Assembly (NCBI GenBank): GCA_021775005.1
Contig: JAJFIK010000090.1
Coordinates: 1 to 44,990 of the forward strand
DNA: 44,990 bases
Source: Rhodospirillales bacterium
Lineage (GTDB): Bacteria; Pseudomonadota; Alphaproteobacteria; JAJFIK01
Reading direction: 5' to 3'
The notes beneath the pieces were generated by a model that made no database searches, was not told the DNA's origin, and was given only the letters and a program-made list of their open reading frames with translations. Shown piece by piece: positions 5,395 through 38,507 of this stretch (within the stretch, counting starts at the first letter, position 1; the number at the start of each line of letters is the position of its first letter). Both the position numbers and the translations under genes were made by a program.

Positions 5395-6045
5395 ATGACC
5401 CTCGAAGTTGACCTCTATTGGTCCTTCCGCAGCCCCTATTCTTATCTTGCCACCCCGCGCCTAGTTGCGCTGGAAGCCGAGTATGACGTTACGTTTAACG
5501 TCAAAATCGTCGCGCCATTGGCCATTCGCCAGCCTGATTTTTTTGAGCGCAATGACCCGCGCTGGCTGGCCTATACCATCACCGATATGGCGCGTCTGGC
5601 GGAGTATCTGGATATGCCGATTGGAGCTCCTAACCCCGATCCCATTATTCAGGACATAAAAACGCGAAAGATTGCCGCCGACCAGCCGCACATCTTTCGC
5701 CTGCTGCGGCTTGGCACTTTGGCCGCAGAGCAAGGCAAAGGGCTAAAGTTCATATACGAGGTTTCAGGCCTTATTTGGGGCGGCCGCGTGAAATGGAATG
5801 AGGGCAATCACCTGCGCGCTGCCGCAGCACGCGCGGGACTCGAATTTGACGAGCTGGAAAAGCGCGCGGTCGCCGAGGCCGATCGTCTGGATGCGGTTGG
5901 GGCGCAGAATGAGAAAGACCAGCAAGACGCCGGTCATTGGGGCGTGCCGCTAATGGTGTTTGAAGGCGAGCCGTTTTTTGGCCAGGACCGCATTCCGGTG
6001 CTCATTTGGCGCCTGGAAGAACACGGACTTTCAAAACGCACATGA
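5395..6045 (+). CDS. 2-hydroxychromene-2-carboxylate isomerase / DsbA-fold (GST kappa-like) protein
   Basis: A 216-residue thioredoxin-fold protein of the HCCA isomerase/GST-kappa family. The N-terminal strand LYWSFRSPYSYLA carries the Ser positions that replace the redox CxxC of DsbA, so the protein would be a glutathione-dependent isomerase or transferase rather than a disulfide oxidase. GVPLMVFEGEPFFGQDR near the C-terminus is the cis-Pro/second substrate segment. ATG 5395 follows an AAGAGG ribosome site. The stop overlaps the start of glpD (ATGA at 6042-6045), so the two are translationally coupled. In PAH degraders the family acts on hydroxychromene carboxylates; nothing in the context supports that substrate here. 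Confidence 0.88.
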   Translation: MTLEVDLYWSFRSPYSYLATPRLVALEAEYDVTFNVKIVAPLAIRQPDFFERNDPRWLAYTITDMARLAEYLDMPIGAPNPDPIIQDIKTRKIAADQPHIFRLLRLGTLAAEQGKGLKFIYEVSGLIWGGRVKWNEGNHLRAAAARAGLEFDELEKRAVAEADRLDAVGAQNEKDQQDAGHWGVPLMVFEGEPFFGQDRIPVLIWRLEEHGLSKRT

Positions 6046-10445: not shown

Positions 10446-10480
10446 AATCACCGCAAGCGGCAAAAACCCGCGCGGTGATT
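10446..10480 (+). terminator. Inverted repeat between oxidase and doxX genes
   Basis: Perfect 9-bp arms (AATCACCGC and GCGGTGATT) are separated by 17 bp. Only a short T run follows, so this is a weak terminator/attenuator or an operator for the DoxX gene 20 bp downstream. Confidence 0.4.
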
Positions 10481-10500
10481 TTCAAAAGGGGAAACGCAAT

Positions 10501-10938
10501 ATGTTTGGAACGATTTCTAAAATGCTTGGCTTTACAGACATGCTTAGCCCGCTGTCAGGTTGGTTCATACGGCTGCCGTTTGCCGCTACTTTTTTGTTTC
10601 ACGGATACTCAAAATTTGAAGGGGGCATTGGAAACTTCGCCGCCAACTTTGGCGAAGGAGGGGTGGCTTTTGCCATTGCTCTCGCCGTTGGTGTCGCGGA
10701 AGTCCTCGCGGGGGTCGGCGCCATTGTCGGTGGTCTGACAAAAGATGATCTAAGCGACGCAGCGACCAAACTCTCAGGACTTGCTGCTGCACCGGTTTTG
10801 ATTGGCGCGATCTATTTGGCGCACTGGGGTCGTTTTAGCTTCACACCAGCCGAAGGATTTCCCATCGGCGGCATGGAGTTCCAACTCCTGTTGCTTGGTG
10901 TTGCGATCTATTTTCTTGCACGCGGCAAAGACGCTTAA
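10501..10938 (+). CDS. DoxX family membrane protein
   Basis: A 145-residue, four-helix inner-membrane protein. The N-terminal segment contains LPFAATFLFHGYSKFEGG, the typical DoxX opening (R/P...F..HG..K), followed by a Gly-rich helix with E and G residues (GVAEVLAGVGAIVGG). Family members include thiosulfate:quinone oxidoreductase subunits and many proteins of unknown role, some tied to oxidative-stress complexes; nothing here allows a choice. AAAGGGG precedes the ATG. Its TAA shares a TTAA tetranucleotide with the stop of the convergent esterase gene. Confidence 0.85.
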   Translation: MFGTISKMLGFTDMLSPLSGWFIRLPFAATFLFHGYSKFEGGIGNFAANFGEGGVAFAIALAVGVAEVLAGVGAIVGGLTKDDLSDAATKLSGLAAAPVLIGAIYLAHWGRFSFTPAEGFPIGGMEFQLLLLGVAIYFLARGKDA

Positions 10939-11864
10939 GCAAGCGCGTCTTTAACAGCTTTCCCGGCCTCTTTGACGGCGTCCTTCGCCTCCTCAAGGAG
11001 GCCGGTCATATTGAAAAACACATGGGTCATGTCATCATAATTTTTATAGGTGACATCAACGCCTGATCCCGCCATACGATCCGCATAGGCTTTGCCTTCA
11101 TCACGCAATGGATCATATTCCGCCGTGATGACGAGCGCAGGCGGCAACCCTGAAAGATCTTCTGCAAGCAGGGGAGAATGGCGCGGGTCAGACATGTCTG
11201 TCCCTTCCGGCAAATAATTATCGCGAAACCATTCTATGGTTGGTTTGTCGAGAATATAACCATGCGCGTTTTCGCTCATGGACGCTGTATTGGCATTGGC
11301 TTTTGTGCCCGGATAGATCAGCAATTGAAAGCAGATTTGCGGGCCTGATTTTTTCGCTAGCTGACAGGCGACGGTTGCCAGATTTCCCCCCGCCGAATCC
11401 CCCGCAACGGCAAGGCGATGGGGGTCAACGCCCAAATCCCTTGCATGGGCCTCAACCCACTTCACCGCTGCCAGCGCATCGTCCACAGCCGCCGGGAACG
11501 GATGTTCCGGGGCGAGACGATAATCGACGGCGATCACGGTAGCTTCGCTGGCATTTGCAAGATTACGGCACAAGCCATCGTGGGAATTAAGGCTGCCGAT
11601 AACAAAACCGCCGCCATGAAAGAATACAAGGCAGCCGCCATCTGATCCGCCGACGGGGGTATAAATTCGTATAGGCACCTCGCCGCCCGGTCCTTTGAAG
11701 GTGGTGTCTTCAACTTTCCCGATTGGCAGATCGGCCGGATCGGTTAGTGAGTGGAGCAATTCGTAGGCTTCGCGCGCGCCAGCTGGCCCGGTTTCTCTGG
11801 CCGGCGGCGAGTCAAGCGACGCCAACTGATCCAGAAAACCTTGGAGAACAGGGTGTACACTCAT
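10935..11864 (-). CDS. Alpha/beta hydrolase, hormone-sensitive lipase (HSL) family esterase
   Basis: A 309-residue esterase of family IV. HGGGFVIGS (residues 83-91) forms the oxyanion hole, GDSAGGN places the nucleophile Ser157, and EYDPLRDEG and MTHVFF carry the likely Asp and His. Acts on short or medium acyl esters in this family. No signal peptide, so probably cytoplasmic. Monocistronic, convergent with doxX with a 4-bp stop-codon overlap. Confidence 0.93.
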   Translation of the reverse strand: MSVHPVLQGFLDQLASLDSPPARETGPAGAREAYELLHSLTDPADLPIGKVEDTTFKGPGGEVPIRIYTPVGGSDGGCLVFFHGGGFVIGSLNSHDGLCRNLANASEATVIAVDYRLAPEHPFPAAVDDALAAVKWVEAHARDLGVDPHRLAVAGDSAGGNLATVACQLAKKSGPQICFQLLIYPGTKANANTASMSENAHGYILDKPTIEWFRDNYLPEGTDMSDPRHSPLLAEDLSGLPPALVITAEYDPLRDEGKAYADRMAGSGVDVTYKNYDDMTHVFFNMTGLLEEAKDAVKEAGKAVKDALA

Positions 11865-11937
11865 AGGGCGGGGCTCCAGCTCGTTTCAGTGCAACCATCT
11901 TGGGCACGAAGCAGCGCTCGCTGCAAGTTTGAACACT

Positions 11938-12495
11938 TTATGCCCCGGGTACGCTACGGCCCTCAAGCCATTTGGCCTCATTGTGGGTTGTCTCCCGGCC
12001 AAGGGCATTGTTGCGAAATGGAAAGCGGCCAAATTCGGCGATCACTTCTCGGTGCCATTTTGCATGACCCAGGGTGCCTGACTCTGGCCCCAGACGCTCT
12101 GTGACCAGGGCAATACACTTGTCCTGCATGGCCAAATCCTCCGCATGCATAAACGGCATGTAGAAAAAAGCACGGCGGTCCTCTGAGACGTCCATATCGA
12201 ACTTGGCCGTGGTCGCGGCGGTTGCTGCATCTTGGGCGCGCTGGTCTTGATCAAATGCTTGACCCTGACCGCGATAGATATTGCGCGACATCTGATCAAA
12301 CAGAATGATCAGGGCCAATGCCCCCTCCGGGTTCAAGCTCCAGGCATCCAGCTCGCCAGCGGCAGCTGACTCAAGAGCGGTTTGAAACCTGGCGCGAACC
12401 CCTGCGTCGAAGTCTGGGTCAACCTTCCACCACGCCTTCGAATCAACGTCTTCAAACCAAAATTGCAATACATCAGCGGGGGAAATGTCGGTCAT
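11938..12495 (-). CDS. DUF924 family protein
   Basis: A 185-residue protein with the DUF924 signature: an N-terminal DVLQFWFED, then ALALIILFDQMSRNIYRG, YMPFMHAED, and a C-terminal IAEFGRFPFRNNALGR. It is an all-helical, TPR-like fold of unknown function, widespread in proteobacteria. ATG 12495 is chosen because homology begins at MTDISPADVLQFW; a frame extension to 12600 lacks family features. Divergent from egtB across about 107 bp. Confidence 0.88.
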   Translation of the reverse strand: MTDISPADVLQFWFEDVDSKAWWKVDPDFDAGVRARFQTALESAAAGELDAWSLNPEGALALIILFDQMSRNIYRGQGQAFDQDQRAQDAATAATTAKFDMDVSEDRRAFFYMPFMHAEDLAMQDKCIALVTERLGPESGTLGHAKWHREVIAEFGRFPFRNNALGRETTHNEAKWLEGRSVPGA

Positions 12496-12602
12496 TAGGG
12501 CGTTGCCTTTGGTTGGTTGGAATCGCGAGACTATATTCCTTGAGCCTATCATGAGGATCGGCAGTTGAAATCCCCCCCGCACCCTGTAACATTTCGCCAT
12601 TA

Positions 12603-13895
12603 ATGGCGATGGCCCTGGAGGCCCAATTGACCGACGACCGCGCGCGCCTGATGGGCGCCTTTAATACAACGCGCCGTGCAACGTGCGAACTTTCAGCGCC
12701 CCTGTCGCCCGAAGATCAGACCGTTCAATCCATGCTTGATGCCAGCCCGACCAAATGGCACCTGGCGCACACCAGCTGGTTTTTCGAGACCTTCCTGCTC
12801 AAAACCTTTGCCCGGGACTATGACGTTTTCGACGATAGCTATGAAGTTCTGTTTAATTCCTATTACAACGCGGTAGGGGAGCAATTCCCGCGAGACAAAC
12901 GCGGTCTTATTTCGCGACCGACGACGCAAGACGTTCTTGCCTATCGCGAACACGTGGATGCGGCCACGCGCAAACTGATCGAGACCACAACAGACAATAC
13001 CTTTGCCAAAGTTGCCGGGTTGATCAAAGTTGGCATCAATCATGAGCAACAACATCAGGAACTGATCTGCACAGACATCAAACATGTGCTGGCACAAAAC
13101 CCCGCGTTCCCTGCTGCCTATAGCGCCCAAAACCCAATGGAAGACGAAGGCTCGCCACAACTGGGGTGGGCGAGTTTCGATGGCGGTGTGATTGAAACCG
13201 GCGTTGACTGGGAACTGGCGGACTTTGCATTTGATAACGAAGGCCCCCGGCACAATGAATATTACGAGCCCTTCAAGCTCGCTGACCGGCTGGTGACCAA
13301 TGGCGACTACCTCGCCTTTATGGAAGACGGCGGCTATGCCTCGCCCATGCTGTGGCTTTCAGATGGTTGGGCGCGGGTCCAGGCCGAAGCATGGGCTGCC
13401 CCGCTCTACTGGCAAAAAACCGATGAAGGATGGATGGAATTCACTCTCGATGGATTGCGTGCCCTCAACCTTCATGCGCCGGTGACCCACGTGAGTTACT
13501 ACGAGGCCGATGCCTTTGCCCATTGGACCGGCTATCGCTTGCCTCGCGAAGGGGAATGGGAGGCTGCCGCGCGAGGACAACCCATTGAAGGGAATTTTCT
13601 CAGCCCCGGAACAGCGCCCCACCCGGTTCAGGTCAACGGGCAATCTGCGCCGTTGCGTCAATTATTCGGCGATGTGTGGGAATGGACCCAAAGCGCTTAT
13701 TCGCCCTATCCCGGCTATCGCGCGCCGGCGGGGGCCATTGGGGAATACAACGGCAAATTCATGAGCGGGCAGATGGTCTTGCGCGGCGGATCCTGCGCAA
13801 CGCCGGTTGACCATGTACGGGCGAGCTATCGCAATTTCTTTTATCCGCAGCAGCGCTGGCAATTTACCGGCATTCGGCTTGCCGCGGAAGCTTAG
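12603..13895 (+). CDS. egtB: Ergothioneine biosynthesis protein EgtB (iron-dependent sulfoxide synthase)
   Basis: A 430-residue protein: an N-terminal DinB-like helical bundle and a C-terminal formylglycine-generating-enzyme/sulfatase-modifying domain. The iron-binding set is visible as WHLAHTSWF (His53/His56) plus HEQQHQE (His147, His151, Glu153). FGDVWEWTQSAYSPYPGY and GQMVLRGGSCAT are the FGE-domain signatures. EgtB joins a thiol donor to the imidazole C2 of trimethylhistidine with O2. The usual partner EgtD (histidine methyltransferase) is not in this window, so it must be elsewhere or the substrate differs. ATG 12609 is an alternative start. Its TAG overlaps the convergent acyl-CoA ligase stop by 4 bp. 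Confidence 0.92.
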   Translation: MAMALEAQLTDDRARLMGAFNTTRRATCELSAPLSPEDQTVQSMLDASPTKWHLAHTSWFFETFLLKTFARDYDVFDDSYEVLFNSYYNAVGEQFPRDKRGLISRPTTQDVLAYREHVDAATRKLIETTTDNTFAKVAGLIKVGINHEQQHQELICTDIKHVLAQNPAFPAAYSAQNPMEDEGSPQLGWASFDGGVIETGVDWELADFAFDNEGPRHNEYYEPFKLADRLVTNGDYLAFMEDGGYASPMLWLSDGWARVQAEAWAAPLYWQKTDEGWMEFTLDGLRALNLHAPVTHVSYYEADAFAHWTGYRLPREGEWEAAARGQPIEGNFLSPGTAPHPVQVNGQSAPLRQLFGDVWEWTQSAYSPYPGYRAPAGAIGEYNGKFMSGQMVLRGGSCATPVDHVRASYRNFFYPQQRWQFTGIRLAAEA

Positions 13896-25438: not shown

Positions 25439-26113
25439 ATGACTTCAGAGACCGAAGATCGCGCCTATGTCCCGGCCCTGGGCCAGCATTGGATGACGCC
25501 GTTCTATGACGCAGCGATTGCGCTCACGACGCGCGAGGCAACGTGGCGGACGGCGCTGCTTGGCCTCGTCGATCCCCATGGCGAAGATGTGATCCTTGAT
25601 ATCGGCTGCGGCACCGGAAGCCTTATCGCGGCAATGAAGGCAGCCAGCCCTGAGATACAAATCGTCGGACTTGATCCCGACCCTGAGGTTCTTGTGATCG
25701 CGAAAGCCAAGGCCCGGTCTCGCGGCCACAAGGTTGAGTTTGTTCAAGGCTTCGGTGATGAACTGGCAGAAAAACTTGGCGCCCGAGCGATCAACAAAAT
25801 TGTGTCCAGCCTGGTCTTCCATCAAGTGCCCCTTGATGGAAAACGATCAACGCTCCAGGCCGCCTTTGACTATTTGCCCGAAGGCGGACAGTTGTTCATC
25901 GCAGATTTTGGAGAACAGCGCACGCCCCTGATGCGGTTTCTTTTCAAAACGGTGCAGCGATTGGACGGGTTTGAATTTACCCAGCCTAACGCTGACGGAT
26001 GCTTGCCAATTATTCTCACAGATGTGGGCTTTTCTGCGGTCCAGGAAGCATTGGTTGTCCCGACAATCGTTGGTTCAATTTCGCTTTACTCAGCACAAAA
26101 GGGCGGTATGTGA
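25439..26113 (+). CDS. Class I SAM-dependent methyltransferase under a copper-type promoter
   Basis: A 224-residue Rossmann-fold methyltransferase. Motif I is ILDIGCGTGSL, followed by the acidic VGLDPDPEVL (motif II), VSSLVFHQVP (motif IV region) and LPEGGQLFIADFG (motif VI region), as in UbiE/Methyltransf_25 proteins. No metal-binding Cys trio of ArsM type is visible, so arsenic methylation is unlikely. It is placed behind a CueR-type promoter and its TGA overlaps the next start by one base (TGATG). Its substrate in copper response is unknown. ATG 25439 is preferred over an upstream frame extension that would run through the promoter. Confidence 0.85.
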   Translation: MTSETEDRAYVPALGQHWMTPFYDAAIALTTREATWRTALLGLVDPHGEDVILDIGCGTGSLIAAMKAASPEIQIVGLDPDPEVLVIAKAKARSRGHKVEFVQGFGDELAEKLGARAINKIVSSLVFHQVPLDGKRSTLQAAFDYLPEGGQLFIADFGEQRTPLMRFLFKTVQRLDGFEFTQPNADGCLPIILTDVGFSAVQEALVVPTIVGSISLYSAQKGGM

Positions 26114-26583
26114 TGGCAGTCTGCGACTGGTCCGGCTTGACGATGTTCATGCGGCAGGCGCAGTATTTGTGTGTGACCAGCATGAGACAAATGTGGAAAG
26201 GCGTGCTTGCGGCATTTTTGGCCGCCACAATGACGTTCGCCTTCATACCCAGCACCCACGCCCATGCCAGTTCAGGTCATGCGAGCAACGCGATGGCGGT
26301 CCAATTGGATGATATGGGCGACAACCACACGGCCCCGCACTCCCATCACGCGGCTCCGAAGATGGACCAACCCGTAGACCAGTTAACACAGCATGCGCCT
26401 TCAGCGCCCGATAGTGAATTGTGCTGCGATGACGCAGGCCTCTGCGCTGGCGGGTTCACATTGGCCATCGAAACAACTTCCATTGAGCCTTTGTTCAGTG
26501 CGAACGATGAGTGGCCCGCAAACGGCAATGCTTTCATAGACTTCACTCCCGCATTGGACATCCCTCCCCCTCGGCACTCCTAG
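26113..26583 (+). CDS. His/Cys-containing exported protein, possible copper binder
   Basis: A 156-residue protein from ATG 26113, or 133 residues from ATG 26182, which begins a clean signal peptide (MWKGVLAAFLAATMTFAFI, cleaved near THAHA). The mature part is rich in His and Met (NHTAPHSHHAAPKMD) and has a Cys cluster LCCDDAGLC. This is reminiscent of CopL/DUF2946-like exported metal-binding proteins, but not a confident match. The first start overlaps the methyltransferase stop (TGATG) with GGGCGG upstream; the second fits the secretion signal better. Located directly before copA, so a periplasmic copper-buffering role is plausible. Confidence 0.6.
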   Translation: MAVCDWSGLTMFMRQAQYLCVTSMRQMWKGVLAAFLAATMTFAFIPSTHAHASSGHASNAMAVQLDDMGDNHTAPHSHHAAPKMDQPVDQLTQHAPSAPDSELCCDDAGLCAGGFTLAIETTSIEPLFSANDEWPANGNAFIDFTPALDIPPPRHS

Positions 26584-26651: not shown

Positions 26652-28397
26652 ATGTCTATTGCTCGAAGAGCAGGGGCCGTGTTTGCCGGCCTTCTATCCA
26701 TACTGATTTTTGGCACGTCCGCACAAGCGGACGAATACAGTCTGACTATCGATGAGGTTGTCATGACCGTCGATGGCGAGACCCGCACCGGGATCGGCAT
26801 CAATGGGACAATCCCTGGACCTACGTTGCGCTTTCGCGAAGGCGAGACCGTGACCATCAATGTGACCAATAATTTGGATGAGGACTCGTCCCTCCACTGG
26901 CATGGCATTTTGCTGCCCAATAATCAGGATGGCGTGCCGGGTCTCACATTTGACGGCATCGCGCCGGGTGAGACCTTTACCTATAGCTACACTTTGCAGC
27001 AGCATGGGACCTATTGGTACCACAGCCATTCCGGCCATCAGGAACAGCGCGGCGTGTTCGGGGCGTTGATCGTCGATCCCGCAGAACCTGACGCGGTGCA
27101 GTACGACCGCGAGCATGTGATCGTTCTTTCGGATTGGTTGCATGAGGATCCGGCGACGGCGCTCCGTAATCTCAAATCGCGGGCGGATTATTACAATTTC
27201 GATCGGCGCACTGTGGGTGACTTCTTCCGCGACGTGTTTGGTGCCCGCTCTGGCGCAGAACGGCAGGCCGCCATTCAGGACCGGCTGGACTGGGGTGCCA
27301 TGCGCATGGACCCCACCGACATCAACGATGTGTCGGGCTACACGTTTCTGATGAATGGGCAAGAGCCGGACGTCAACTGGTCGGCGCTGTTTGAGCCCGG
27401 TGAGCGCGTGCGGCTGAGGTTTATCAATGCGGCGGCCATGACCTATTTCGATGTGCGCATTCCGGGCCTGACCATGGCGGTCGTCAATGCGGACGGCAAC
27501 AATGTGGTGCCTGTGCCGGTGGATGAGTTTCGCATTGCTGTTGCCGAGACCTATGACGTGATCGTGGAGCCAGAGGACCACCAGGCCTACACAATCTTCG
27601 CCGAGGCCCGCAGTCGTGAAGGCTATGCCCGCGGAACATTGACACCTCAGTTGGGCATGGAAGCGCCGATCCCGGAAATGTCGGCACGCGAGGTTTTGAC
27701 CATGGCAGCCATGGGCGGCGCGCATGGGGGACATGGGGGCGGAAACCGCCGTCAAGCAACTGAGCCGGAGCTTGATGCCATGGCAGGCATGGATCATGCT
27801 GCCATGGGGCATGAGGACATGGTGCAGATGGCCGAACCAGAAACCTCGCCCATGGCAGACATGGACCACGCTGCAATGGGCCACGACATGCCAGCGACAC
27901 CTGACCCCCTCGCCGGTCACGACATGGGGACAACAACCGGCGACGCAGAAATGAGTGGGCGCATCACACGGTTGACCTATGACGATCTTGAGGCGCTGGA
28001 GCCCTATGTCGGCGCGCCAGCCCCGGACCGCACCATCACGCTGCGGCTGACCGGCGTCATGGAACGCTACATCTGGACCATCAATGATGAGCGTTATGAT
28101 CCTGATGACACTGAGCCCATTCGAATGCGCCTTGGTGAGCGCGTGCGGCTGGAGTTTATCAACGAGACCATGATGGATCACCCCATGCATCTGCACGGCA
28201 TGTGGATGGATCTGCAAAACGGACACGGGGAGACAAACCCGCGCAAGCACACCATCAGCATCCCGCCCGGGCAAACTCTGTATGCGGATGTTACCGTGGA
28301 TGCGCCTGGAAATTGGGCGTTTCACTGCCATCTAATGTTTCACATGGCCTCGGGCATGTTCCAGCGCGTGGTCGTGGCCGAAGCGGTTGAGAGTTGA
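26652..28397 (+). CDS. copA: CopA-type periplasmic multicopper oxidase
   Basis: A 581-residue cupredoxin oxidase (Cu(I) oxidation, periplasm). A signal peptide ends near SAQA. The four copper-ligand blocks are present: HWHG (His82/His84), HSH (124-126), HPMHLHG (510-516) and HCHLMFHMASGM, with Cys559 as the type 1 ligand and Met569 as the likely axial ligand. Residues about 350-440 form a Met/His-rich insert with repeated MDHAAMGH-type units, characteristic of CopA/PcoA. The symbol follows copper-resistance usage; it is not the P-type ATPase. The stop overlaps the region before copB. Confidence 0.93.
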   Translation: MSIARRAGAVFAGLLSILIFGTSAQADEYSLTIDEVVMTVDGETRTGIGINGTIPGPTLRFREGETVTINVTNNLDEDSSLHWHGILLPNNQDGVPGLTFDGIAPGETFTYSYTLQQHGTYWYHSHSGHQEQRGVFGALIVDPAEPDAVQYDREHVIVLSDWLHEDPATALRNLKSRADYYNFDRRTVGDFFRDVFGARSGAERQAAIQDRLDWGAMRMDPTDINDVSGYTFLMNGQEPDVNWSALFEPGERVRLRFINAAAMTYFDVRIPGLTMAVVNADGNNVVPVPVDEFRIAVAETYDVIVEPEDHQAYTIFAEARSREGYARGTLTPQLGMEAPIPEMSAREVLTMAAMGGAHGGHGGGNRRQATEPELDAMAGMDHAAMGHEDMVQMAEPETSPMADMDHAAMGHDMPATPDPLAGHDMGTTTGDAEMSGRITRLTYDDLEALEPYVGAPAPDRTITLRLTGVMERYIWTINDERYDPDDTEPIRMRLGERVRLEFINETMMDHPMHLHGMWMDLQNGHGETNPRKHTISIPPGQTLYADVTVDAPGNWAFHCHLMFHMASGMFQRVVVAEAVES

Positions 28398-28408
28398 GGG
28401 AGATAACC

Positions 28409-29119
28409 ATGGAACATGCACGCCGCATGCGGTTTTCGGCCCTGATGATCGCTGTCTTCATATCCATGCTTGGTGCCTCAGCGATTGCTGCGGAAGGTGC
28501 CACCTTCGCATACGCCGCCCTTGATACGGACATCGCGGAACAGGGCGGTGAGACTGTCCTGAGCTGGGATGGACAGGGGTGGATCGGCGGCGATTTCCAC
28601 AAGCTTTGGGTCAAGACCGAAGGTGAATGGGCCGCGGGGGATTTAGAAGAGGCCGAATTGCAAGCGCTCTACAGCCGCATGATCGCCCCGTTCTGGGATT
28701 TCCAGGCCGGTATCCGCTATGACTTTGAACCTGAGGGCCGCGCCTATGCAACCGCCGGGTTCATGGGCCTTGCGCCCTATTGGTTTGAGGTGGACGCCGC
28801 TGCATTCCTGAGTGAGGACGGCGATGTCAGTGCCCGCCTCGATGTGGACTATGAGCTTTTGTTTACCCAGCGGCTGATCGGATCGCCCTATGCAGAGGTC
28901 GATATTTTCTCGCGGGATGTACCAGAGCTTGAGGTGGGCTCAGGTCTGGCCACGCTGAATAGCGGCTTTCAGCTGCGTTATGAGATCACACGAAAATTCG
29001 CACCTTATGTGGATATCAACTATGAGCGTGCGTTTGGCACCACTGCAGACATGCGGCGGGCGGCAGGCGAAGACGTAGAAACAACAACCGTCCGCTTCGG
29101 CGTGCGGCTGGTGTACTAG
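28409..29119 (+). CDS. copB: CopB-type outer-membrane copper resistance protein
   Basis: A 236-residue protein with a signal peptide (cleaved near AIAA) and a beta-strand-rich body. The region WDGQGWIGGDFHKLWVKTEGE and the alternating aromatic C-terminus ending FGVRLVY are the CopB/PcoB pattern. It lacks the long Met/His-rich N-terminal repeats of the Pseudomonas protein, so it is a short form. CopB sits in the outer membrane and works with periplasmic CopA. GAGGGAG precedes ATG 28409, which lies 11 bp after copA; the two are co-transcribed. Confidence 0.9.
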   Translation: MEHARRMRFSALMIAVFISMLGASAIAAEGATFAYAALDTDIAEQGGETVLSWDGQGWIGGDFHKLWVKTEGEWAAGDLEEAELQALYSRMIAPFWDFQAGIRYDFEPEGRAYATAGFMGLAPYWFEVDAAAFLSEDGDVSARLDVDYELLFTQRLIGSPYAEVDIFSRDVPELEVGSGLATLNSGFQLRYEITRKFAPYVDINYERAFGTTADMRRAAGEDVETTTVRFGVRLVY

Positions 29120-29159
29120 GCAGGGCTTTGTGAAGAACGAAATGATGGAGCGTCAAAAA

Positions 29160-29918
29160 ATGAGACTCAAAAAAGTACTGCTGGTGTTGCTCATACTGAT
29201 GGGCACCGGCAGCGCCTTTGCGGCAGGGTCCGGCCACGACCACGACGAACCCTCTTCTACAACTCAAGAAGCGCAGCCGTCAGCGGACCAAGACGACGCC
29301 AAACATGATGAGGTGGTGGAAGAATCCGCAGACCATCATGGCCCTGAACAACCCATGAATGCCCACAGTGACAGCGCAATGGGCGCTGATGACCACCATG
29401 GCGACACAGCCATGGAGGAAATGGCGGCGGAACATGATCATTCAACCCACGAAGAGGGAACGTGGGCCAAGGATGATTTCCAGCAGGTTCTTGCCTGGAT
29501 CGGTAAATTCCACCCAGCGGCAACCAACTTTCCCATTGCCCTCTTATTGGCGGCCGCCCTTGCAGAGCTTTTGTTCCTGGGAACACAGAACACTGCCTTG
29601 CGCCAGGCGGCACGTTTTTGCCTCTGGACCGGCACAGCCGGTGCTGTGGGAACAGCCGTGCTGGGGTGGTTCTTTGTTGGCTTTGATTTTTCCGCCGACG
29701 ATGCCCTCCTCTCAGCTCACCGATGGAATGGAACGGCGACAGCTTTCGTCTCGCTCTTTGCGTTGGGGTTCGGGGAGCGGGCGTTTGCCGCGCGGGGGTC
29801 AGTCGCCCTGTTTCGCGTCGCCCTCGTGGCTGTTGCTCTCATGGCCGGGTACAACGGCCTTCTGGGCGGCAAGATGGTCTATGGTGAGGACCATTATGCT
29901 TGGCCGACGTCAGAATGA
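29160..29918 (+). CDS. DUF2231-domain membrane protein with His/Asp-rich periplasmic region
   Basis: A 252-residue protein. A signal peptide (VLLVLLILMGTGSAFAA) is followed by about 85 residues dense in His, Asp, Glu and Met (SGHDHDEP, SADHHGPEQPMNAH, DDHHGDTAMEEM, EHDHSTHEE). A four-helix DUF2231 domain then opens with IGKFHPAATNFPIALLLAA. DUF2231 helices have conserved His residues that may bind haem or metal. The acidic-His segment looks like a metal-binding tether. ATG 29160 has GGAG 9 bp upstream. It probably belongs to the copA-copB transcript. Function unknown. Confidence 0.8.
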   Translation: MRLKKVLLVLLILMGTGSAFAAGSGHDHDEPSSTTQEAQPSADQDDAKHDEVVEESADHHGPEQPMNAHSDSAMGADDHHGDTAMEEMAAEHDHSTHEEGTWAKDDFQQVLAWIGKFHPAATNFPIALLLAAALAELLFLGTQNTALRQAARFCLWTGTAGAVGTAVLGWFFVGFDFSADDALLSAHRWNGTATAFVSLFALGFGERAFAARGSVALFRVALVAVALMAGYNGLLGGKMVYGEDHYAWPTSE

Positions 29919-29971: not shown

Positions 29972-30907
29972 ATGTCTCATAGCCATACACTCGGCGGCGG
30001 AATGGACGGCGGCAATAGCCGCGCCCTGCAAATTTCCGCTTGGCTGACAGGCATCTACTTTGTCGTTGAGCTGGCAATCGGGATCTACACTGGCTCGATC
30101 GCCGTTATCTCCGACGCCTTTCACACGTTCTCAGCCGTCGGCGGCGTTTTGCTGGCTTTTGTGGCAGCAAAAATTGCGACCCGCCCGGCGACGACATCAA
30201 AGACGTTTGGATTCGCACGGGCGGAAATTGTCGGTGCTTTGCTCAATGGGATGTTCCTTCTGGGAATGGCCCTCATCGTCTTTGTGATGGGCTACATGAG
30301 ATTACGGAACCCCATTGACCTTCCCACCGGGCCCATGCTGTTCGCGGCGGCTGGCGGGCTCATCACGGAAACGATTTCGCTTTGGCTGCTTTATGGGCGA
30401 CGAAAGGGAAACCTCAATATGCAGGGCGCGTTCTGGCACGTCATGCAAACATTTGTCGGCAGCTTGCTCATCATCGTTACGGCGCTTGTGATCAAGTTCA
30501 CCGGCTTTCTCGCCATCGACCCGATTTTGGGCATGGCCTTTGGCGTCGTGCTCCTTCTGGTGTCAATCGGGGTGATCCGGGAGTCCATCGACATTCTGAT
30601 GGAAGGGACGCCGAGAGATATCGACTTGCCAGTGGTGGTCAGTGATCTCGAAGCCATTCCCAATGTCACTGACGTTCACCATGTCCATGCCTGGGCGCTG
30701 ACGTCCGGGCGGAATGTATTTTCTGCGCATGTGAGGATCGGCAATGGCGCTGATCTGCACAACATTCTTGTTGAGGCCCACAAAAACCTCAAAGATAAAT
30801 TCGGGTTTCATTTTTCAACACTGCAAATCGAGACGACCTGCATGGACGAAGCCCATGCGCGGGATCTTGAATTCAACCAACACGGAGAAGACAATCATGA
30901 TCATTAA
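29972..30907 (+). CDS. Cation diffusion facilitator (CDF) transporter with an atypical metal site
   Basis: A 311-residue CDF protein: six membrane helices and a cytoplasmic C-terminal domain (VHHVHAWALTSG). Canonical zinc exporters carry HxxxD in both TM2 and TM5. Here TM2 reads SDAFHTFSA and TM5 reads HVMQT, so the Asp of each motif is replaced by Ala and Thr, while both His remain. Family membership is otherwise plain, with a His-bearing N-terminus (MSHSH) and C-terminus. The change suggests a different or altered metal preference. AGGTGAGG precedes ATG 29972. The stop overlaps the next gene by 11 bp. Confidence 0.88.
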   Translation: MSHSHTLGGGMDGGNSRALQISAWLTGIYFVVELAIGIYTGSIAVISDAFHTFSAVGGVLLAFVAAKIATRPATTSKTFGFARAEIVGALLNGMFLLGMALIVFVMGYMRLRNPIDLPTGPMLFAAAGGLITETISLWLLYGRRKGNLNMQGAFWHVMQTFVGSLLIIVTALVIKFTGFLAIDPILGMAFGVVLLLVSIGVIRESIDILMEGTPRDIDLPVVVSDLEAIPNVTDVHHVHAWALTSGRNVFSAHVRIGNGADLHNILVEAHKNLKDKFGFHFSTLQIETTCMDEAHARDLEFNQHGEDNHDH

Positions 30908-31463
30908 ACAACTCGCACTTGGATTTGGCGTTTTAGGATTGGCCGCCCTTCTCGGCGGTTGCGCCGCGACTAACGCAGCAGCACAAATGGACGACATGGA
31001 CGGTGGCCACGCGCAGGAGGGCCACCCGATGATGGGCCAAATGCACGGCACTCAAGAAATGCATTGCCAAATGCATGACTGCGGGGCCGATGCGGAGGCG
31101 GCGCAGGCCGTGCTTCAGGCCTATTCCGCCGCCATCAACGCCGAAGATATCGACGCCATGGCGGCGCAGGTTGTTGCCGATGAGCGCTTCAGCGTGATCG
31201 AAGGTGCCGGCACCAACAGTGGCTGGGCTGACTACCGCGATCATCACATCGGCCCGGAATTCGCCTCTGAGCGGATCGACTTTCACGTCTATGGCTATGA
31301 CAACATCGACATGCGCGTCGGCCACATGTTCGCCTATGCCACGTTTACCTATGCGTTCGAAGCCACATTGGACGGCGAGCCCTACAACAAAGAAGGCCGC
31401 GGCACCGCTGTCCTTCTGCGCACGCCTGAGGGCTGGCGCATCACCCATATCCAGACCTCGTAG
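30897..31463 (+). CDS. Met/His-rich lipoprotein with NTF2-like (SnoaL/DUF4440) domain
   Basis: A 188-residue lipoprotein. The lipobox LGGC lies near residue 22. A Met/His/Asp segment follows (MDDMDGGHAQEGHPMMGQMHG, CQMHDCG) of the type seen in periplasmic copper chaperones. Residues about 65-188 form an NTF2-like domain (AVLQAYSAAINAEDIDAM, then TPEGWRITHIQTS). An NTF2 domain fused to a copper-binding-type tail is unusual; the domain may bind a small ligand or act as a dimer scaffold. ATG 30897 overlaps the CDF gene's end, implying coupling. Anchored to a membrane facing the periplasm. Confidence 0.8.
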   Translation: MIIKQLALGFGVLGLAALLGGCAATNAAAQMDDMDGGHAQEGHPMMGQMHGTQEMHCQMHDCGADAEAAQAVLQAYSAAINAEDIDAMAAQVVADERFSVIEGAGTNSGWADYRDHHIGPEFASERIDFHVYGYDNIDMRVGHMFAYATFTYAFEATLDGEPYNKEGRGTAVLLRTPEGWRITHIQTS

Positions 31464-31475
31464 CGGGGCGGCCCC

Positions 31476-31958
31476 ATGAACAAGGCTGCTTTGTATGGAG
31501 GCATCGCCGCAGCGGCGCTTTTGGGCATTGGTGCATTTTGGTTGTTGGCGCCTGAGCGGGCGCCAACGGGGCCCCTGGCTGTTGAATTGCGGCCAGGGGA
31601 TGCGCCCTTTGTGGCCCAGGGGCAGGAGTTATATGAACAATATTGCGCCTCCTGCCATGGCGCGAATTTGGAAGGCGAGGCCAATTGGCGACGGCGTAAT
31701 GCGCAAGGTCGCTTGCCAGCACCGCCGCATGATGAGACCGGGCACACCTGGCACCACCCGGATGGTGTCCTGTTCCAGCTCACCAAGTTCGGCCCGGCGG
31801 CATTGGTGGGCGAGGGCTATGAATCCGACATGCCTGGATATGAAGGCACCCTGACAGATGAGGAAATCCTGGCGATTCTATCCTTCATCAAAAGCCAATG
31901 GCCCGAAGAAATACAGCTCCAGCATGACGGGGTGAACACCCGCGGCGGGCATCGTTGA
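31476..31958 (+). CDS. Membrane-anchored c-type cytochrome
   Basis: A 160-residue monohaem cytochrome c. One N-terminal helix (residues 7-24) anchors it. The haem site is CASCH (Cys57, Cys60, His61); the likely axial ligand is Met in [11 protein letters not shown], and [17 protein letters not shown] is the conserved C-terminal helix. The sequence closely resembles cytochromes found beside multicopper oxidases in copper clusters. It could receive electrons from copper oxidation or donate to a periplasmic reaction; neither is shown. Starts 13 bp after the lipoprotein gene. Confidence 0.9.
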
Positions 31959-32013: not shown

Positions 32014-34338
32014 ATGACCCACAAACTGATGTCGGCGATACTGGCATTCCGGCTACTCATCATTTGTGTATGGGCGGGCATCCTTTTAATTTTCGGGTAC
32101 GTTGCAGCAACGCAGACGGCGTTTACCTCGGACTACCGCGTTTATTTTGCGCCGGACAATCCTGAGCTTCTTGCTTATGAGGCGATTGAGCAGGAATTCG
32201 CCAGCGACGACAACGTCCTGATTGCCGTTGCGCCGCAGTCTGGTGACGTGTTCACACCTGACGTTCTTGCGCTTGTTGCCCAGCTCACAGAGGCCGCCTG
32301 GCAAATCCCCCATGCCCAGCGGGTTGATTCGCTGACGAACTTCCAACATGTCCGCGCGGTTGACGGTGATATTGTGGTGGGGTCATTGATTGAAAACCCC
32401 CGCACCATGCCGCCCGGGGAATTGACCGCCGCCCGTGAAATTTCCCTGAGCGAACCCACTCTCGTCCGCCGCCTTATCTCGGAGACCGGCCAGGCAACCG
32501 GCATATTCGTCACCCTGAATTTTCCGGGCGATGACCACCGGGCGCATGTCCCGGAGACAGTGGGATATGTTCGCAGTCTTGTCGACGAGATCAGGCGCGA
32601 GTATCCCGACTTGCGAATCGCGCTTACGGGCACAGCTATCATCAGTCACGCCCTCGACGAAATGACCGTCCGCGACCTGATGGTTCTATCACCTTTTCTC
32701 TATGTGGTGCTGTTTGGCATGCTGACGGTCCTTCTGCGCTCGGTGTCCGGCATGTTTGTCACAAGCGTGATTGTAACTGTTGCCGCCGTGGTCGCAATGG
32801 GGGTCGCCGCATCCCTCGGAATCCTGCTGACCTCTGCGTCCGTCGTCGCGCCAATCATTATCCTTACGCTTGCTGTGGCGGATTCGGTTCACTTCATTGC
32901 CAGTGCGCAGGACGCGCGCCATGGCGGCATGGGGAAGATCGAGGCGCTGAGAGAGAGCATGCGGATCAACTTTGAGCCCGTCTTCCTCACCAGTCTCACA
33001 ACGCTCATCGGCTTCCTCAGCCTTAATTTTTCCGCCGCTCCCCCTTTCCGGGATCTGGGAAATGTAACCGCAGCAGGTGTTATCATCGCCTGGGCGGCCT
33101 CAATCACATTGCTCCCGGCCATGCTCAGCTATCTACCCCTGCCCAGCAGCGGGCGCGGCCCGGTCGGGGCGAGGGCCATGGCGCGCTTCGCGGATTTTGT
33201 TGTTAAGGCCCGTTGGCCCATTCTCATCACCGCATCATTGGTGGCCGCTCTTTTCACAGGTCTTGCGCCGCTCAATAGGTTGGATGACCAAGTCATCGAG
33301 TGGTTCGGCGAGCGGACCGCCATTCGCCAGGACACCGAATTCGTGACGGAAGTCCTCACCGGACCCTATCGCATGGACTTCGCCGTGGACGCGGAATCCG
33401 AAGGCGGCGTAGCTGACCCGGCGTATTTGCGTGATCTGGACGCCTTCGCCACCTGGTTGCGGGCACAGCCTGAGGTCCAGCATGTTGACAGTTTTGCCGA
33501 TGTGTTGCGTCGGCTCAATCGGGCGTTCAACGATGATGACGAACGCTTCTACAGGTTGCCGGAGTCTCGGGAATTGGCCGCACAGTACATTCTCCTTTAT
33601 GAGTTCTCATTGCCCTATGGCCTTGATCTCACAACGCAGCTGAGCTTTGACAAGTCTGCAAGCCGCCTGACCGTGACGATGGGGCGAATCTCGTCGGCTG
33701 AAACACGCGCGTTGAAACGGCGCGCAGAAGCATGGGCGGCGGCAAGCCTGAGCCATGCCGAGATATCTCAGGGAAGCGGCACAGCTGTCATGTTCGCATT
33801 TGTGTCCCAGCGAACCATCAACAGCATGCTCGCGGGAACCGGACTGGCCTTTCTACTCATCGCCGTCACGTTGATCCTTGCCCTGCGCAGTTGGAGGTTG
33901 GGGCTTCTCAGCCTCATCCCAAATACGCTGCCGGTGGTGATTGCGTTTGGCATCTGGGCGCTCACGGTTTCTCAAATCGGCGTTGTGGCCTCAGCGATCG
34001 CCGCCATGACCCTGGGCCTGGTGGTTGATGACACAGTGCATTTCCTGAGCAAGTATCATCGCGCGCGAAAAGAGCACGGTCTGAACGTCCATGATGGGAT
34101 CCGCTTTGCATTCGAACACGTGGGCGGGGCACTTGTGACAACGACCATGGTTTTGGTCGCCGGTTTTTCTGTGATGACCTTTTCAGATTTCTTGATCAAC
34201 TGGCAGATGGGCGTCCTGACCGTGATCACGATCACCGTTGCGCTGGTCCTGGACTTCTTGTTGTTGCCAGCGCTGTTGATGTTTTTTGACCGCGAAAAGT
34301 TCTGCAGCTGCGCCACATGCAGAGCAATCGAGGCATGA
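32014..34338 (+). CDS. MMPL/RND-family transporter with Cys-rich C-terminus
   Basis: A 774-residue RND-type permease of the MMPL/patched-like branch: two repeats of one helix, a large extracytoplasmic loop, then five helices. Proton-path acids stand in LAVADSVHF (TM4 region) and LGLVVDDTVHFLSKYHRAR (TM10 region), the DxxHF motif of this branch. It differs from CusA-type heavy-metal RND pumps, which are about 1,040 residues and need a fusion protein. The C-terminus reads FCSCATCRA, a CxCxxC-like tail that could bind copper. It stands alone behind a CueR-type promoter. Substrate unknown: lipid or a metal-related compound. Confidence 0.85.
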   Translation: MTHKLMSAILAFRLLIICVWAGILLIFGYVAATQTAFTSDYRVYFAPDNPELLAYEAIEQEFASDDNVLIAVAPQSGDVFTPDVLALVAQLTEAAWQIPHAQRVDSLTNFQHVRAVDGDIVVGSLIENPRTMPPGELTAAREISLSEPTLVRRLISETGQATGIFVTLNFPGDDHRAHVPETVGYVRSLVDEIRREYPDLRIALTGTAIISHALDEMTVRDLMVLSPFLYVVLFGMLTVLLRSVSGMFVTSVIVTVAAVVAMGVAASLGILLTSASVVAPIIILTLAVADSVHFIASAQDARHGGMGKIEALRESMRINFEPVFLTSLTTLIGFLSLNFSAAPPFRDLGNVTAAGVIIAWAASITLLPAMLSYLPLPSSGRGPVGARAMARFADFVVKARWPILITASLVAALFTGLAPLNRLDDQVIEWFGERTAIRQDTEFVTEVLTGPYRMDFAVDAESEGGVADPAYLRDLDAFATWLRAQPEVQHVDSFADVLRRLNRAFNDDDERFYRLPESRELAAQYILLYEFSLPYGLDLTTQLSFDKSASRLTVTMGRISSAETRALKRRAEAWAAASLSHAEISQGSGTAVMFAFVSQRTINSMLAGTGLAFLLIAVTLILALRSWRLGLLSLIPNTLPVVIAFGIWALTVSQIGVVASAIAAMTLGLVVDDTVHFLSKYHRARKEHGLNVHDGIRFAFEHVGGALVTTTMVLVAGFSVMTFSDFLINWQMGVLTVITITVALVLDFLLLPALLMFFDREKFCSCATCRAIEA

Positions 34339-34407: not shown

Positions 34408-36741
34408 ATGAGCGCAGACCATAACCACGGCCATCACGACGAACCCGCTACTGATCCTGTATGCGGCATGAAGGTGGCGCTCAATGCGGGCAAACCGACA
34501 TTTGCTCATGACGGTTCGAGCTATCATTTCTGCTCCCAAGGCTGCCACGACAAGTTTGCGGCGGATCCGCAGCACTATCTCAGCGGTGCCCACAAGACGG
34601 CACAAGAAGACATGCCCGCGGGCACCCAGTACACCTGCCCCATGCATCCGGAAATCGTGCGCGATGCGCCCGGCGATTGCCCGATCTGCGGCATGGCGCT
34701 GGAGCCCATGGGCATACCTGCCGGGGATGAGGGCCCCAATCCGGAACTTGTGGACTTCACGCGCCGCTTCTGGGTCGGTGCGGCGCTTACAGTTCCGCTT
34801 CTTGTGTTGACCATGGGACCCTTTGTTGGCCTTGGGTTCATACGTGATTTCTTTGGCGAGCGGACGGCGCTGTGGATCGAACTCGCGCTCGGCACGCCGG
34901 TTGTGCTCTGGTCGGGCTGGCCCTTCTTTGTGCGCGGCGTCAAATCGGTGATCAGCCGTAATCTCAACATGTTCACGCTCATCGCTATGGGCGTCGGCTC
35001 GGCCTATCTCTTCAGCGTCGTCGCCGTGCTTGTGCCTGAAATTTTCCCCGATGGCTTCCGCAATGCAGAGGGCCATGTGGGCGTGTATTTCGAGGCCGGG
35101 GCCGTGATTGTGGTTCTGGTGCTGCTTGGACAGTTGTTGGAACTGGGCGCACGGGAACGCACCGGTGCGGCAATCCGGGCGCTGCTCGACCTTGCCGCCA
35201 AGACCGCGCGCATCATCCGCGAAGATGGGCGCGAAGAAGAAATTCCGCTAGAGGACGTGCATGTCGGTGATCACCTGCGTGTGCGCCCTGGCGATAAAGT
35301 CCCCGTTGATGGGGTGGTCGTCGAAGGCCGCTCGTCCATCGATGAGTCCATGATCTCCGGCGAGCCCATTCCGGTCGAAAAAACCGAGGGCGACAAAGTT
35401 ACCGGCGCAACCATTAACGGCACGGGAACGCTGGTCATGGAAGCCACCCGTGTTGGTGCCGACACCATGCTGTCCCAGATCGTTGAAATGGTCGCCAGCG
35501 CCCAGCGCAGCCGCGCACCCATTCAAAAACTCGCCGATTCCGTTGCGGGCCTATTCGTGCCCGCCGTCATAGCGGTCGCCATCGTCGCCTTTTTCGCCTG
35601 GGCGATCTGGGGCCCGCCGCCCGCCCTTTCCTATGCATTGGTTTCAGCGGTCGCTGTGTTGATTATCGCCTGTCCCTGCGCGCTGGGTTTGGCAACGCCC
35701 ATGTCGATCATGACGGCCACCGGCCGGGGCGCGCAGGCGGGCGTCCTCATCAAAAACGCTGAGGCCCTTGAGCGCTTTGCCAAGGTGGACACACTGATTA
35801 TCGACAAGACCGGCACATTGACGCTTGGCAAGCCAAAGCTGGTTGCCGTCCTGCCCCAAACCGGACATGACGAGACAGAGGTGCTCCGGCTTGCAGCAAG
35901 TCTGGAGCGCGGATCGGAACACCCCCTGGCTGAGGCCATCGTCGCAGGGGCAGAAGAACGCGGCATCGCGCTTGTAAAGGCGGAGGACTTTGAAGCCGTC
36001 ACGGGCAAAGGCGTCACCGGCCTTGTGGACGGTAAGCGTGTGGCCCTGGGCAACGCAGCGCTGGTCGCTGATCTCAACCTTGAGGGCGGCGCGCTATCAG
36101 AGATCGCTAATGCCCGGCGGGATGAAGGCGAAACAGTGATGTTCGTCATCGTCGGGGGCGAGATCGCCGGACTGGTGGCCGTTGCCGACCCGGTCAAGGA
36201 CACAACGCAAGGCGCACTGACGGCGCTCCATGCCCAGGGCTTCCGCATCGTCATGGCAACCGGCGACAATGAGCGCACCGCCGCCGCCGTGGCCGCCAAA
36301 CTCGGCATTGATGAGATTCGCGCTGATGTGCTGCCCCAGGATAAGGCGCGCATCATCAAGGACCTGCAGGCCGAGGGGCGCAAAGTCGCCATGGCCGGAG
36401 ACGGCGTCAACGATGCCCCCGCCCTTGCGCAGGCGGATGTGGGCATTGCCATGGGCACCGGCGCTGATGTGGCGATCGAAAGCGCCGGGTTCACCCTGGT
36501 CAAGGGGGATCTCAATGGCATCGTCCGGGCGCGGCGCCTGTCACGCGCCACCATGCGCAACATTAAACAGAACCTGTTCTTCGCGCTGGTTTACAACGCC
36601 GCTGGGGTGCCGGTGGCGGCGGGCATTCTGTTCCCGTTCTTTGGCATACTGATCTCGCCCATGTTTGCGGCTGCCGCCATGAGCATGTCGTCTGTATCGG
36701 TGATCAGCAATGCGTTGAGGCTGCGCACGGCGAAAATCTAA
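34408..36741 (+). CDS. Copper-exporting P1B-type ATPase with YHS and heavy-metal-binding domains
   Basis: A 777-residue inner-membrane pump for Cu(I). Residues about 15-55 form a YHS domain ([20 protein letters not shown]). Residues about 70-100 are a heavy-metal-binding domain ([20 protein letters not shown]). The ATPase has the CPC permeation motif (Cys422-Pro-Cys424), the phosphorylation site DKTGTLT (Asp466), HP in SEHPLAEAI, and [12 protein letters not shown]7 and TM8 read YNAAGVP and MSMSSVSV, the Y-N and MxxSS set of P1B-1 copper pumps. There is no N-terminal CXXC ferredoxin-like domain, as in SilP/CopF-like pumps. It is driven by the CueR-type promoter at 34343. Confidence 0.95.
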
Positions 36742-37277: not shown

Positions 37278-38507
37278 TTACGTTATGCGGCCTTCAATGA
37301 GTTTGATATTGCTCTTGGCGATCCCGTGCGCATCGGCCAAGTTCTTCCATTCTGAAAGGCTCGCCTGTGTTTGCTCAATAATCTCGGCAATGCGCGCGCG
37401 GCCCAGTTTGGCGTGTTCCCCCAGCTTTGTCAGATGCGATAGGGAAGGCGCTTTGCCTTCACCCATGACCATGGTGCTTTGTTCGCCGCCCGGCCCCGAT
37501 GAAAACGTCAAATCATAAGCGGGAGAGAGCGTCCACTCGCCCGCCTCATCCATGAGAAATGTGAAGTTCTTGGAGTGGTCGTCGCGGTTGTGCGCGAGCA
37601 CGTTGAAGACGGCCAGTTGGAACATCTTTTCAACCTCCCGCACGTCGCGGGTGAGCTGTTCCGTCAGGGCGAGCAAGTCCTGATAATCAAGCGCGGGTGT
37701 GCGGTAGTCCGAATGCAGCAGGCCGCAGGCCGTGTGTGTGTGGATGCGCTTTGTGCCCTCCCGATCAAACCGCGCCGTTGCGAAATACCCCGCGCCCTGG
37801 GCCGCCGGGAACAAGTGCGTGTCTGTCATGGGTACGCCCGCACTGCGGGCCATCAGCGAATAGACATACTCTATCGCGCCCGCATCATCGCTGTCCTGGG
37901 CGTTGGCAAACTTGACGATCCATGGCCTGAAACCGTCCGGCAATGCATTCTTGCCGTGGATGAGCTTTGCCTTGTTGGCCCCAACGCCAATGAGCGCCTT
38001 GGGACGCGCGCCGGCGGATGAACCATTAAGGGCGATCAGATCGTTGAGAACCTCGCCCGCTTTGCCCTCCAAAACGTGCCGTGTCTGCGTGGCGAGAGTG
38101 TCCAGGTCCAGCGTAATCGCGTCATCGGGCCGGGTGGTCTTGTCCGGTTCATAGGTCAGTGCGCCAAGGGCAGTGCGCCCCACAACGGCGAGGCGGTCGA
38201 GCGGGGTGACTTGATCAGGCTGCACGCCCCCTGCCCGCAACGCGCGATCCAGCAGCAGGCGGCCCCAGCCATCAGGCAGGCTGTCATTGAACAGCCCCGG
38301 CAGCCCTTCAAACAAGCTGCGGTCAAACTCGCGTAGCCCTGGCTGCAAGCGCAGGCGCAAGGGCGAGAGCTCCAGGCCGCGCTTGATGAAGGCCGCATCG
38401 TACTCGAAATAGATGCGCCCCTCGCGCTCGGCCAAACGGCCAACCGCAAAGGACGTGGTTCCAAAATCTAGCCCGACTTTGATTTCTTTGATGGGGATCC
38501 AGCTCAT
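37278..38507 (-). CDS. hipA: HipA-family serine/threonine kinase toxin
   Basis: A 409-residue type II toxin of the HipA fold. N-terminal strands (VGLDFGTTSFAVGRL) are followed by FEGLPGLFNDSLPDGWGR. The nucleotide loop GSSAGARPK (162-170) contains the serine autophosphorylation region, and the catalytic loop HNRDDHSKN has Asp309 and Asn314. AYDLT supplies the Mg-binding Asp332. E. coli HipA phosphorylates glutamyl-tRNA synthetase; the target here is unknown. Its ATG overlaps the antitoxin stop (ATGA, 38504-38507), the usual hipB-hipA coupling. It lies between repeat copies 2 and 3. Confidence 0.92.
   Translation of the reverse strand: MSWIPIKEIKVGLDFGTTSFAVGRLAEREGRIYFEYDAAFIKRGLELSPLRLRLQPGLREFDRSLFEGLPGLFNDSLPDGWGRLLLDRALRAGGVQPDQVTPLDRLAVVGRTALGALTYEPDKTTRPDDAITLDLDTLATQTRHVLEGKAGEVLNDLIALNGSSAGARPKALIGVGANKAKLIHGKNALPDGFRPWIVKFANAQDSDDAGAIEYVYSLMARSAGVPMTDTHLFPAAQGAGYFATARFDREGTKRIHTHTACGLLHSDYRTPALDYQDLLALTEQLTRDVREVEKMFQLAVFNVLAHNRDDHSKNFTFLMDEAGEWTLSPAYDLTFSSGPGGEQSTMVMGEGKAPSLSHLTKLGEHAKLGRARIAEIIEQTQASLSEWKNLADAHGIAKSNIKLIEGRIT

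Follow-up and report, generated by a model that had tools for sequence, protein, structure and literature searches.

A copper-linked clade of cation diffusion facilitators without the HxxxD aspartates: candidate Cu+/Ag+ exporters with a rebuilt transport site

A gene within an alphaproteobacterial copper cluster encodes a cation diffusion facilitator (CDF) that has lost the aspartates of both HxxxD transport motifs, and it belongs to a clade in which this loss goes together with an invariant glutamate in TM4. The gene was found in the window, the whole stretch of 44,990 nucleotides that was analysed from a Rhodospirillales bacterium (contig JAJFIK010000090.1); the features discussed below are collected in Table 1. 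The protein is tentatively read as an inner-membrane Cu+/Ag+ exporter of a distinct CDF subfamily with a rebuilt site, a reading that falls a little short of probable and for which we infer the substrate.

The window protein is a genuine and complete member of the CDF superfamily that stands outside the HD-HD group of zinc exporters. Its reading frame runs uninterrupted from the ATG to the stop codon, and its translation passes the Pfam models Cation_efflux (PF01545; 116.8 bits, cut-off 26.6) and ZT_dimer (PF16916; 48 bits, cut-off 26.7) as well as the NCBIfam model TIGR01297 (229.2 bits, cut-off 82.35). It falls below the cut-off of each of the NCBIfam equivalog models for ZitB, DmeF, FieF and MntE, scoring 175.9 bits against a cut-off of 408 for ZitB. 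An AlphaFold2 model (pLDDT 78, pTM 0.63), built on only 33 aligned sequences, matches the structures of ZnT3, YiiP, ZnT7, SLC30A10 and ZnT1 along its entire length, and VIA-align assigns it the YiiP/ZnT fold with Z scores of 24.0 to human ZnT3 (9jj1, 288 residues) and 23.8 to YiiP (5vrf). The initial annotation had taken the family fold to be otherwise intact, and the fold matches and Pfam domains bear this out.

Table 1. Coordinates of the CDF gene, its altered sites and the surrounding copper cluster (positions in the window)
Feature	Position	Strand	Basis or remark
Small His/Cys-rich secreted ORF, 5' of the multicopper oxidase	26182..26583	+	Sequence
Copper-resistance multicopper oxidase, CopA/PcoA type	26652..28397	+	TIGR01480, 688.6 bits (cut-off 479)
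CopB outer-membrane copper protein	28394..29119	+	PF05275, 261.5 bits; 4-base overlap with the oxidase
DUF2231 membrane protein, N-terminal half His-rich	29130..29918	+	PF09990
CDF transporter, 311 aa, six TM helices and C-terminal ZT_dimer	29972..30907	+	Translation, Pfam/NCBIfam, AlphaFold2, PDB fold matches
TM2 site D48..H51-T-F-S-A55	30113..30136	+	A55 replaces Asp (ZitB D57, SLC30A1 D47)
M106 in TM3	30287..30289	+	Invariant in the clade; Glu in nearly all canonical Zn-CDFs
E133 in TM4	30368..30370	+	Invariant in the clade and the HT-HA sister; ZitB N135, SLC30A10 N127
TM5 site H156-V-M-Q159-T160-F-V-G-S164	30437..30463	+	T160 replaces Asp (ZitB D163, SLC30A1 D255)
F281	30812..30814	+	His of the C-terminal HxTxQxE motif (ZitB H284) lost
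Lipoprotein, His/Met-rich segment and SnoaL-like domain	30897..31463	+	11-base overlap with the end of the CDF gene
c-type cytochrome	31476..31958	+	PF00034
MMPL/HAE3-type RND protein	32014..34338	+	PF03176
Cu(I) P1B-1 ATPase, YHS and HMBD metal domains	34408..36741	+	TIGR01511, 593.9 bits (cut-off 397)

TM2 of the protein reads SDAFHTFSAVGG and TM5 reads GAFWHVMQTFVGS, and the resulting transport quartet is H51-A55 / H156-T160 (HA-HT) rather than HD-HD. Human SLC30A1 aligns with both motifs without gaps, which pairs A55 with D47 and T160 with D255, and in the alignment with E. coli ZitB the same two residues correspond to D57 and D163. Both alignments confirm that the HTFSA and HVMQT motifs lack the aspartates, as had been claimed from the letters of the sequence, and both histidines (H51 and H156) are indeed kept. 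The HD-HD (or HD-ED) quartet of zinc exporters of the ZitB/CzcD type is thus absent from the protein, and likewise from its clade. Nor have the acidic ligands moved to neighbouring positions, since residues 49-59 and 152-165 are free of Asp and Glu throughout the clade; relocation within the same helix is ruled out, and the new acid sits in TM4. Chance or sequencing error as the cause of the loss is ruled out by relatives with the same substitutions. Two other residues of the site are retained, D48 in TM2 (D50 in ZitB and D40 in SLC30A10 by alignment) and S164 in TM5 (S167 in ZitB), and W155 and Q159 in the TM5 site are specific to the clade.

The positions fixed in the clade were identified by comparing 28 of its members with 32 HD-HD proteins. 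The changes from HD-HD proteins to the clade include D55 to A, D160 to T, M52 to T, G159 to Q, L155 to W, E106 to M, H281 to F or M, and N133 to E; position 281 is occupied by Phe, Met or Leu across the clade. E133 is present in all of the HA-HT records (94/94, a few of these being proteins fetched twice), in a single HA-PT record and in an HT-HA sister protein described below. The corresponding residue is N, occasionally D and in one case K, in HD-HD proteins, N in HD-ED proteins and mostly T in DD-HD proteins. The only other Glu at position 133 belongs to a very divergent protein (L115) whose alignment is unreliable, and no well-aligned canonical CDF has E133.

E133 aligns with N135 of E. 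coli ZitB, and a HMMER alignment to SLC30A10 places N127 on E133. ZitB loses its function in each of the mutants D50A, D57A, N135A, D163A and S167A (PMC1868760, Table 1, in which the ZitB column was assigned by residue numbers that match the ZitB alignment), and the Mn2+ ligands of SLC30A10 are D40, N127, D248 and S252 (PMC13272668). Because E133 occupies a position that is essential in ZitB and coordinates Mn2+ in SLC30A10, the acid appears to have been relocated rather than simply lost. To judge from these sequence comparisons, the TM5 acid would have been lost and a TM4 acid gained in the same shell, with the TM2 acid D55 lost outright; H51, H156, D48 and E133 are left in the clade site. 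The altered site put forward in the initial annotation therefore stands as regards the aspartates, whose loss is real, but, with an invariant glutamate in TM4, the site has undergone more than a plain loss of carboxylates.

A scan of genome_contigs returned 80 loci at 57-70% identity to the window CDF, of which 79 have the HA-HT quartet and the remaining one (L015) has HA-PT. One of the scan patterns included the TM5 motif, and whole genomes were therefore also searched with a whole-protein profile. Matches of at least 347 bits were all HA-HT, apart from the HA-PT protein already named, and those of 264 bits or less had HD-HD, HD-ED, DD-HD and similar quartets. The single protein that scored between these two sets (L161, 285 bits) is actinobacterial and HT-HA. 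Six further gammaproteobacterial members of greater divergence, all HA-HT, were recovered with the same profile at 386-511 bits; they share D48, E133, M106, S164 and F281, an out-of-sample confirmation of the pattern. Across 33 members, whose identity to the window protein is about 57-70%, roughly 80 alignment columns do not vary. The HA-HT quartet in 79 of 80 relatives, together with invariant D48, E133, S164 and M106, argues that the site is under strong constraint. The Ala/Thr pair is thus conserved in a clade linked to copper genes, as an earlier suggestion had envisaged. Two of the copies look damaged: L015 (10001-10912) has Pro in place of H156, and the C-terminal domain of L157 appears to be frameshifted.

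Occurrence of the clade is sporadic, with members in 3 of 289 alphaproteobacterial genomes (including that of the window) and 7 of 321 gammaproteobacterial genomes, a further one in Brevibacterium (L074), and many copies on roseobacter plasmids; this distribution fits horizontal transfer. A scan of viral_contigs found no relative, and phage records gave distant matches only, at 32-37% identity among the matches listed. Plasmid matches from Acinetobacter, Staphylococcus and Enterococcus were rejected as clade members, being 20-32% identical among the matches listed, and the single Acinetobacter CDF whose quartet was read has HD-HD. One HT-HA protein was found overall, and genomes of the same order and the same class as the bacterium that carries it held no others.

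The HA-HT clade is monophyletic with support of 99/98 in a careful IQ-TREE analysis from which the quartet and position 133 had been removed, and its grouping with the HT-HA sister is supported at 100/100 in the same analysis. The clade is placed near the ZitB-like HD-HD zinc exporters, with its exact branching relative to those groups left unsettled, and a second, quick tree that took in 98 proteins gave the same neighbourhood near the ZitB-like group. The czcD gene of pMOL30 was searched for at 105-163 kb and was not found, and hence the trees were built without CzcD itself. The quartets given in the text of a CDF survey of 18 clades are HD-HD, HD-ED, ND-DD, DD-DD, DD-HD, EN-HD and HH-DH (PMC5703985); HA-HT is absent from that text and matches none of these published A-site quartets. 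No description of an HA-HT subfamily was found in the literature searched, and this Asp-less branch of the CDFs has apparently not been described before.

The window CDF, which is the sole CDF of its operon, lies within a colinear run of genes that extends from the multicopper oxidase to the P1B ATPase with intergenic gaps of -11 to 69 bases. The ATPase carries the CPC, YN and MSxSS signature. The small His/Cys-rich ORF is probably part of the copper cluster; the longer ORF that contains it (25999-26583) has no Pfam match. The CDF is flanked by two His-rich proteins, the DUF2231 protein and the SnoaL-like lipoprotein, and similar DUF2231/SnoaL-like genes were also detected by tblastn near two other clade members (L003 and L010), which suggests that the two proteins form a small accessory module. 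A HipA-like gene (HipA_C and Couple_hipA; 37281-38507, minus strand) lies directly downstream of the copper cluster. Elsewhere in the window, the ORF at 12603-13895 resembles the ergothioneine synthase EgtB in combining a DinB_2 with an FGE-sulfatase domain.

The clade as a whole is strongly linked to copper genes. Copper neighbours had been noted at the outset for the window CDF, and they recur well beyond it: when each cluster at 85% identity contributed a single locus, 12 of 22 clade loci had a multicopper oxidase or P1B ATPase within ~10 kb, compared with 0 of 20 canonical control loci (p=6e-5), so that membership in copper-resistance (cop/pco) operons exceeds the control. Several clade contigs are short, and 12/22 is therefore a lower bound. 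Most of the P1B ATPases near clade members (21/25) have the complete CPC/YN/MSxSS Cu(I) signature, and 2/25 are of the CPH type. Gene order is oxidase-CDF-P1B-DUF411 in the Brucella/Paracoccus relatives, and in several MAGs the P1B gene is immediately 5' of the CDF. On roseobacter plasmids the CDF shares a cluster with oxidase, cytochrome, two-component and CueR genes; in Sphingobium it is near an RND efflux trio, a copper-binding protein, SCO, a multicopper oxidase, DUF411 and CueR; and the Hyphomicrobium copy adjoins CopC-CopD. CueR and DUF411 recur among the neighbours, and CopB, an oxidase or a P1B ATPase is near 5 of the 6 added gammaproteobacterial loci. Among the loci inspected, four (L013, L025, L040 and L235) had no obvious copper neighbours, and no copper genes were recognised around the HT-HA sister. 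The most divergent clade member (L240; G1445:C2:66000-85500) lies beside a P1B ATPase (~10446-12692, minus strand) whose N-terminal metal motif is unusual, GMGSDHC instead of GMTCxxC.

An active copper transporter is the best single reading of the conserved, rebuilt site and of the copper genes that accompany it. According to this proposal, H51 and H156 would stay in place and, with both HxxxD aspartates gone, E133 would supply the acid beside D48 and S164, in a geometry that we infer from SLC30A10. The site would then carry one carboxylate fewer than that of the HD-HD exporters. A His-rich, less acidic site would suit a soft monovalent ion, hence the suggestion of Cu+ (perhaps Ag+), and an ion of this kind would account for the tolerance of a missing carboxylate. 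The ion would be moved from the cytoplasm to the periplasm against H+, alongside the Cu+ ATPase, and the periplasmic multicopper oxidase, CopB and cytochrome c would handle the exported copper. Copper as the substrate, the export direction and the coupling to protons are all putative, and synteny alone cannot tell Cu+, Ag+, Cu2+ or another metal apart. It counts against copper export that Cu+ is not typically bound by Glu or Asp, and a second copper exporter looks redundant in operons that already hold a Cu+ ATPase. The only phenotype found that bears on a member comes from D. shibae: a strain with a 102-kb plasmid that includes such a gene showed slightly improved growth in AgNO3, while its response to Cu, Co and Zn was unchanged (PMC9426580); because the whole plasmid was tested and the host has other clade copies, this comparison is weak evidence. 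A more specific form of the proposal, with the metal and proton site shifted to His2-Glu-Asp across TM2, TM4 and TM5 to make a dedicated Cu+/Ag+ antiporter, is possible but doubtful.

The protein may instead still export a divalent ion (Zn, Co or Ni), with E133, D48, H51 and H156 forming a four-ligand divalent site and with the gene carried in copper islands through the tendency of metal-resistance genes to cluster. The retained histidines and the suitability of H/D/E ligands for Zn2+ or Co2+ would agree with this, as would the position of the clade near the ZitB-like Zn-CDFs and the example of SLC30A10, a CDF that uses the D40/N127 region for a divalent ion; furthermore, the survey text describes A-site composition as a poor predictor of CDF metal specificity (PMC5703985). 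Continued divalent export is nonetheless somewhat unlikely: copper linkage is nil at the 20 canonical Zn-CDF loci, the substitutions D57A and D163A kill ZitB function (PMC1868760), the conserved C-terminal His has been lost too, and a canonical CDF on an Acinetobacter plasmid, although it lies near a P1B ATPase and CueR, stays HD-HD with N at position 133. We regard as unlikely the idea that the clade proteins are CDF-fold partners or copper sensors that hetero-oligomerise and do not transport by themselves. Hetero-oligomeric CDFs are known, the proton- and metal-binding aspartates are both gone here, and the Zrg17-like and ZnT6-like CDFs share a degenerate quartet, Zrg17 having TxxxS/T in TM5 (PMC1868760). 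However, their pattern differs from HA-HT, and they are subunits of eukaryotic hetero-oligomers, whereas the clade is bacterial and keeps both histidines along with a compensating Glu. The membrane site is also among the most conserved parts of the clade proteins, and most loci, that of the window included, have no second CDF nearby.

Movement of copper inward, or its supply to load periplasmic cuproenzymes rather than for resistance, would make sense of the multicopper oxidase, cytochrome c, SCO and L,D-transpeptidase genes, and not efflux genes alone, that are often found near the CDF. It is nevertheless improbable, because the CueR and P1B ATPase genes nearby indicate detoxification and the known bacterial CDFs are exporters that work by H+ antiport. 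Decay into a non-functional CDF, which the loss of both transport-site aspartates and the two damaged copies might bring to mind, has next to no probability; identical substitutions occur in dozens of intact relatives with their many invariant columns, and this conservation refutes the degenerate-gene reading.

Among characterised systems, E. coli ZitB and C. metallidurans CzcD have the same fold, length and domain order as the window CDF. The equivalents of ZitB H53, H159, D50 and S167 are retained, and the differences from ZitB include D57 to A, D163 to T, N135 to E, E108 to M, G162 to Q and H284 to F. SLC30A10, a Ca/Mn antiporter, is a fold match at Z 22.9, and its metal-binding D40 and N127 correspond to D48 and E133; it keeps D47 and D248, whereas the window CDF has lost both and has Glu for N127. 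The actinobacterial HT-HA sister (L161, genome G714) has likewise lost both aspartates and has E133, but it is unlike the clade in its reversed order of Thr and Ala, in N for Q159 and in R for M106. Its gene (G714:C2:107284-108147) may serve a separate substrate. The CzcX protein of A. baumannii, likened here by description, is a CDF in a pco-type copper cluster whose mutant has a marginal copper phenotype (PMC6387184). CdfX of C. metallidurans was set aside as a comparator, being a Zn exporter without a C-terminal domain. The genome of the window also encodes a protein (L084; G000:C38, ~5440-5967, plus strand) in which an HMA-like segment, MTVSRFHVAGMDCAAEE, is fused to a CDF-like membrane part; the CDF C-terminal domain is absent from this fusion.

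In every A-site quartet given in the text of the CDF survey, TM2, TM5 or both still carry an acid (PMC5703985). A widespread clade without either Asp, and with a fixed TM4 Glu, amounts to a natural experiment in charge relocation, and it would reveal which residues are required for metal selectivity and for proton coupling. Annotation pipelines label such genes 'cation diffusion facilitator' or 'czcD', so that zinc/cobalt resistance may be wrongly inferred from them. If the proposal of a dedicated Cu+/Ag+ antiporter is true, the Asp-less subfamily would be a monovalent soft-metal transporter within a family known for divalent ions, and the clade may represent the first copper-specialised branch of the CDFs.
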